From: Candidatus Bathyarchaeota archaeon
GTDB lineage: Archaea > Thermoproteota > Bathyarchaeia > 40CM-2-53-6
Direction: 5' to 3'
Length of the DNA stretch: 64,000 bases
Assembly (NCBI GenBank): GCA_005888735.1
Contig: VBBN01000028.1
Span: 62,001 to 126,000 of the forward strand
Positions 54,925 to 55,261 of the stretch are shown here, in pieces. A model generated the notes under the pieces. It ran no database searches. It was not told the DNA's origin and was given only the letters and a program-made list of their open reading frames with translations. The translations under genes were made by a program, and so were the position numbers. The number at the start of each line of letters is the position of its first letter. Position 1 is the stretch's first letter.

Positions 54925-55053
54925 TGGTGCGGGAGGTGGGATTTGAACCCACGAACCCCTGCGGGACAGGCGCCTCAGGCCTGCGCCTTCAAAGCCCGTA
55001 CGAAAAGGGCTTCTTTGACCTGGCTTGGCAAAACGGGCAACACCGTCTCCCGC
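54925..55053 (-). tRNA. tRNA-Leu(GAG), CCA encoded, two non-canonical introns (55032..55046 and 54987..55012)
   Basis: Spliced: GCGGGAG TT GCC AAGCCAGGTCAAA GGC G CAGGC CTGAGGC GCCTG TCCCGCAGGGGTTC GTGGG TTCAAAT CCCAC CTCCCGC A CCA; all stems pair; class II variable arm; A73. Confidence 0.88.
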
Positions 55054-55261
55054 GCACGCGACCAGGCCGTCCTCCCGCACATAAGCCCCCGGCACGCAAC
55101 AAGGGCCCATATTGGCTTTCCCGTCATCCACAAAAACAAGCACAAGACAACCGCCAACGGGAAAAACGTTTAATGCCCCCGCAACCCCGCCGCACCCCAA
55201 CGCTCAATAGCCCGAGCCAACCAAACACGACTATTCAAGAAAAAAGCGAGATGAGGATGGA

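Follow-up and report, generated by a model that had tools for sequence, protein, structure and literature searches.

The window analyzed here, a 64,000-nucleotide stretch of DNA, is part of contig C65 in a 93%-complete genome (G000) of 2.39 Mb. Its SecY is 74 to 79% identical to SecY of soil Bathyarchaeia MAGs, identifying the organism as a soil Bathyarchaeia member, not one of the Thermoproteales. Divergent from rpl15-secY (names that derive from a reading of the gene sequences and from the SecY matches), the minus strand carries from 55053 to 54925 a tRNA-Leu(GAG) gene with two BHB introns of 15 and 26 nt, and this neighborhood is kept in relatives whose loci cover the region. Read along the minus strand, the order is TGCGGGAGGACGGCCTGGTCGCGTGC, GCGGGAG, ACGGTGTTGCCCGTT, TTGCCAAGCCAGGTCAAAG, AAGCCCTTTTCGTACGGGCTTTGAAG, GCGCAGGCCTGAGGCGCCTG ... 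CTCCCGCACCA; the coordinates of all features are collected in Table 1.

A first-pass annotation of this DNA had proposed a noncanonical BHB intron after position 7. The string it reported, GCGGG-AGA-CGGTGTTG-CCCG-TTT-TGCC, is present on the minus strand, with the 15-nt segment lying exactly at 55046 to 55032, a CGGG:CCCG central helix, and AGA and TTT bulges. Its expectation that cutting out these 15 nt would leave the usual acceptor, position 8-9, and D-stem sequence was right about the junction and incomplete for the gene, since a second, 26-nt intron at position 23/24 must also be removed. By direct reading of the sequence, both introns match the 3-4-3 BHB pattern, and removal of both restores a canonical tRNA with a junction identical to that of intron-less orthologues. 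ARAGORN accepted a tRNA only with both introns out and none of the three less spliced forms. In the raw window, no tRNA was reported by ARAGORN or by Rfam at the gathering threshold, which is normal for a gene with two interruptions. The exons all fit into 129 nt of a single strand, so the gene is not a split tRNA with exons on separate transcripts.

Table 1. Features of the tRNA-Leu(GAG) locus, in window coordinates
Feature	Position	Strand	Basis
tRNA-Leu(GAG) gene, exons and two introns, CCA encoded	54925..55053	-	ARAGORN accepts the doubly spliced form as tRNA-Leu(gag), 88 nt
Exon 1, GCGGGAG, nt 1-7	55047..55053	-	Nine intron-less orthologues join it directly to TTGCC
Intron 1, 15 nt, position 7/8 (between G7 and U8)	55032..55046	-	BHB visible in the sequence; six orthologues have introns of 23-27 nt at this site
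Intron 1 BHB: central helix; bulges	55052-55049 : 55037-55034; 55048-55046, 55033-55031	-	Sequence reading
Exon 2, TTGCCAAGCCAGGTCAAAG, nt 8-23	55013..55031	-	Identical in all aligned family orthologues
D-loop GCCAGGTC inside exon 2	55024-55017	-	
Intron 2, 26 nt, position 23/24	54987..55012	-	Valid tRNA only after removal; in all family orthologues and G023/G031
Intron 2 BHB central helix, TCAA : TTGA	55018-55015 : 54992-54989	-	
Exon 3: anticodon GAG, T arm, acceptor 3' strand CTCCCGC, CCA	54925..54986	-	Sequence and ARAGORN on the spliced form
Leader copy of acceptor 5' strand, GCGGGAG	55072..55078	-	7/7 acceptor pairing in intron-bearing Leu(GAG) genes; fixed distance from promoter-like box
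Proposed outer-helix strand in the leader, GGCCTGGT, complement of D-loop GCCAGGTC	55061..55068	-	8 pairs; in unconstrained fold
Conserved promoter-like box GAAAGCCAATATGGG	55106..55120	-	Family alignment; 29-34 nt from leader copy

In the window sequence alone, the BHB motif would be weak evidence for an intron, because a 4-bp central helix at the fixed register appears by chance in 7.6% of shuffled 15-nt inserts and 3.0% of uniform random ones. Intron 1 is convincing because six orthologues have introns at the same site and others match the gene exactly without it. Strong orthologue matches were found in 13 other genomes of the family. Introns of 23 to 27 nt with an inner helix occupy position 7/8 in G005, G006, G007, and G010 and in the MAGs L060 and L062 (apparently the same species as G020 and G018, respectively), and all six orthologues have a central helix CGGG:CYCG. 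Nine orthologues contain GCGGGAGTTGCC uninterrupted, which confirms both intron 1 junctions exactly. The inner helix, clear in the relatives, is reduced in the window, and an outer helix is predicted only with the leader. On this comparative sequence evidence, intron 1 is nearly certain as a genomic feature, and its excision at the RNA level is predicted.

An independent-looking candidate for the same arrangement was found in the tRNA-Leu(CAG) gene of another genus of the family (G003), which reads GCGGGGT AAAGCCTGGTCTAGTGTCGT GCGGGGG AAGGCACCATGCTATTGTGGTGTCTCCCGTG TTGCC. The 7/8 site, the central helix CGGG:CCCG, and the leader layout are the same as in the window gene, and the 8-bp inner helix is unrelated to that of the Leu(GAG) introns. 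Among 260 genomes of the class and 400 of the phylum, the Leu 7/8 arrangement was matched only in the family of the window species, using Leu-specific patterns of the 3' splice side that are blind to other tRNAs and to other central helices.

A SecY tree, used for the intron-less split only because one row (L080) is frameshifted, has one branch (support, 97/94) separating the intron-less rows from all intron-bearing rows and the outgroups. Intron 1 is absent in two genomes of a neighboring family (G023 and G031). Given this split and this absence, the simplest reading is a gain of intron 1 in the stem of the family and one loss. Intron 2 is present in every compared gene, including those of G023 and G031. 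Two orthologues have peculiarities of their own. The tRNA-Leu(GAG) gene of G023 (L021/L097) has an extra insert just 5' of the T arm, absent in G031, that is a candidate third intron, and one orthologue (L064, MNGO01000011.1) lacks its middle, with GCGGGAGTTG joined to TCCCG, by deletion, as a pseudogene, or through an assembly error.

A search for another intact tRNA-Leu(GAG), a check suggested by the first-pass annotation, found no other complete gene in the 93%-complete genome, and the window gene is apparently single. Contig C37 carries a tRNA-Leu(GAG) 3' fragment (L039, G000:C37:92576-92644) that begins at the 3' end of intron 2, has C33 for T33, and shares the 3' flank; it is perhaps an integration-site remnant or a duplication. 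It was considered as an intact second gene or a split 3' half and rejected as either, having no 5' part and no 5' partner among the genome matches. On contig C59, a further tRNA-Leu gene (L040), whose anticodon reads as TAG, is interrupted by an insert where the window gene has intron 2 (23/24). Rfam located 18 tRNA genes in this genome (L041 to L058); most of them were missed by ARAGORN and seem to hold at least one intron, a load as heavy as in Thermoproteales, suggesting that soil Bathyarchaeia carry many tRNA introns that simple tRNA finders miss.

Upstream of the gene, the near-duplicate GCGGGAG noticed in the first pass is indeed at 55078 to 55072 and is kept in relatives. It lies 29 to 30 nt from a conserved box (GAAAGCCAATTAGGG) in sixteen genes (34 nt in the window gene), and the box-to-exon distance in the same genes varies from 46 to 59. 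In other tRNA genes of this genome, a TATA-like box lies, by reading, approximately 32 to 37 nt before the tRNA. The near-constant box distance and this TATA-like spacing suggest that the upstream copy probably marks the transcript start. A perfect heptamer copy was found in the 60-nt leader of none of the 16 other tRNA genes of the genome (best, 6/7). The box is part of a strongly conserved intergenic block between the tRNA and rpl15 (55106 to 55175), which contains ATTAAACGTTTTTCC and GAAAGCCAATTAGGG and has flanks, such as GATGC/GCATC, that may covary; the block may represent promoter elements or a structured RNA, and a permissive Rfam search found nothing credible in it.

Two complementarities link the leader to the tRNA. 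In each of the seven intron-bearing Leu(GAG) genes, all 7 positions of the upstream copy pair with the 3' strand of the acceptor stem; the copy reads GCGGGAG in six and GCGGGGG, with a G-U pair, in one. In ten intron-less or collapsed genes, only 5 to 6 nt pair. In addition, every intron-bearing leader (seven genes) has a D-loop complement of 7 to 8 nt between the copy and the exon, and these complements differ in sequence (GGCCTGGT, GGCCTGGC, TCTGGCT, and, in L062, ACCTGGCT). The 8 pairs made by GGCCTGGT in the window are equaled by 1.9% of linker shuffles, and single-sequence shuffles reach the leader-complementarity scores in 1 to 13% of cases. Each sequence by itself is therefore only moderately significant, and the strength of the complementarity lies in its recurrence, in species that are related. 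For intron-less species, the D-stem sequence CCAAG was also considered as the leader's partner and was dropped, since in most of these species CCAGG gave the better score.

Next to the acceptor stem, an intron creates a folding conflict, since stem and splicing motif require the same nucleotides. Because the central helix needs nucleotides 2 to 5 of the acceptor-stem exon, the leader copy is proposed to occupy the 3' acceptor strand and the second leader stretch to serve as the outer helix. Transcription would probably start near the upstream GCGGGAG. In the precursor, the leader copy would pair with the 3' strand of the acceptor stem, and GGCCUGGU, which follows it, would pair with the D-loop, leaving exon nucleotides 2 to 5 free to form the 4-bp central helix with the intron, while the leader would provide the BHB outer helix that a site so near the 5' end could hardly obtain from the tRNA. 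The two-subunit archaeal splicing endonuclease would then cut out intron 1, and ligation would follow. After splicing, exon 1 would displace the copy from the acceptor stem, and the leader would be trimmed off by RNase P, an order of events that requires splicing before 5' trimming.

Folding of precursors with an energy model backs leader assistance in part. Without the leader, the exon was held in the acceptor stem (P of at least 0.97) and no central helix formed in six precursors, and with the leader the exon was released in all six. With the leader, the BHB register was dominant in G000 (0.96) and G006 (0.998), and slipped pairings beat the strict BHB central helix in G005, G007, G010, and G003. 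All five Leu(GAG) precursors that were folded without constraints showed both pairings, of the copy to the acceptor 3' strand and of the leader to the D-loop. Randomizing the heptamer lowered the central helix to approximately 0.50 in G000 and left it unchanged in G006, so the copy may be dispensable and the D-loop helix may matter more. Assistance of splicing by the leader is plausible from these models.

The genome also encodes candidate splicing machinery. Two tRNA_int_endo genes correspond to two endonuclease subunits, one closest to EndA of A. pernix and S. tokodaii with the FAVY...DHAPF...VRKQF motifs kept and the other divergent, and the splicing endonuclease is, as judged from its genes, of the (alpha beta)2 type. 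Such enzymes have relaxed substrates when they carry a Crenarchaea-specific loop (PMC12397907). RNase P RNA was found in most of the relatives searched and was not found in the window genome, possibly due to a gap in the MAG.

The joint reading of these results is that the apparently single tRNA-Leu(GAG) gene has a BHB intron at 7/8, a further intron at 23/24, and a leader that helps to fold the precursor, to which a probability of about 0.8 is assigned. Whether the leader acts as a full placeholder in splicing is close to an even bet. Slightly worse than even odds are given to the complete version, in which the leader duplicate would hold the 3' acceptor strand during splicing, splicing would precede 5' trimming and end by strand exchange, and the leader would be a cis-encoded folding guide possibly born from the same partial tandem duplication as the intron. 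Against a leader role, the CGGG of the copy persists in intron-less species, where a pure splicing role needs none. This persistence is what would be expected if the intron were real and the copy had no part in folding or splicing, being instead an element for transcription initiation or what is left of a partial tandem duplication at the 5' end of the tRNA. Such an origin is a serious if somewhat improbable alternative: the copy keeps its 29- to 34-nt distance from the box in every gene, intron-less ones included, the TATA-like boxes of other tRNA genes in this genome are similarly placed, PMC3695527 mentions G-rich start sites of archaeal tRNAs, and the leader GCGGGAG...GCCTGGT resembles the tRNA's own start, GCGGGAG...GCCAGGT. 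However, it does not predict that full 7-nt acceptor complementarity would be confined to intron-bearing genes or that the linker would stay complementary to the D-loop while its remainder changes.

The first-pass annotation had offered the upstream copy as an alternative mature 5' end, in which case a longer intron (approximately 40 nt in the window) that includes the second GCGGGAG would be removed. The box distance would suit a leaderless tRNA, predicted folds have the upstream copy paired to the acceptor 3' strand, and in most species this choice would leave the mature sequence unchanged. Even so, this is unlikely, since intron-less orthologues fuse the downstream copy to TTGCC, their upstream copies no longer match the acceptor (ACGGGAA, GCGGGCA, and others), the upstream copy of G003 (GCGGGGT) is mismatched at nucleotide 7, and the inner helix abuts the downstream copy and not the upstream one. 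The near-duplicate is better explained as what it probably is from sequence comparison, a conserved leader element. Least probable by far is a decaying pseudogene in the window; compared with relatives, the gene has a shorter intron and a weaker inner helix, and a 3' fragment of the gene exists on C37, yet the exons yield a complete tRNA, and the fragment, with no 5' part, leaves the genome with no other complete tRNA-Leu(GAG) detected.

If the leader resolves the folding conflict, tRNA leaders would be working parts of splicing in these archaea, and partial duplication of a tRNA 5' end would become a candidate route of intron gain. The processing order would also be the reverse of that reported for Methanopyrus kandleri, where ends are processed first and introns last (PMC3695527). 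Noncanonical BHB introns are well known, and the acceptor stem is one of the places given for them (PMC12397907). The intron positions listed in PMC4090602, where 3/4 is called extreme and the list closes with "etc.", do not include 7/8. In the literature searched, which mostly excluded subscription journals, no account of a leader with an acceptor-strand copy was found.

Like noncanonical archaeal BHB introns in Thermoproteales, Thaumarchaeota, and others, the introns described here have a BHB with two 3-nt bulges around a 4-bp exon-intron helix, share a gene with another intron, and occur with an (alpha beta)2-type endonuclease; they differ in that the outer helix is proposed to come from the leader, which holds a second copy of the acceptor strand. 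Split tRNAs of Nanoarchaeum, Caldivirga, and Staphylothermus, with their complementary leader and trailer, likewise draw BHB pairing from flanking non-tRNA sequence, whereas here there is one continuous transcript, whose leader would pair within the same molecule, with the tRNA's own D-loop and acceptor strand. A parallel for an origin by duplication is the intron gain in Caldiarchaeum tRNA-Thr(GGU), also tied to an extra copy of a tRNA 5' end; in that case the fragment is at least 1.8 kb away, beside a recombinase gene (PMC3293823), whereas the copy in the window is 25 nt upstream, within the leader.
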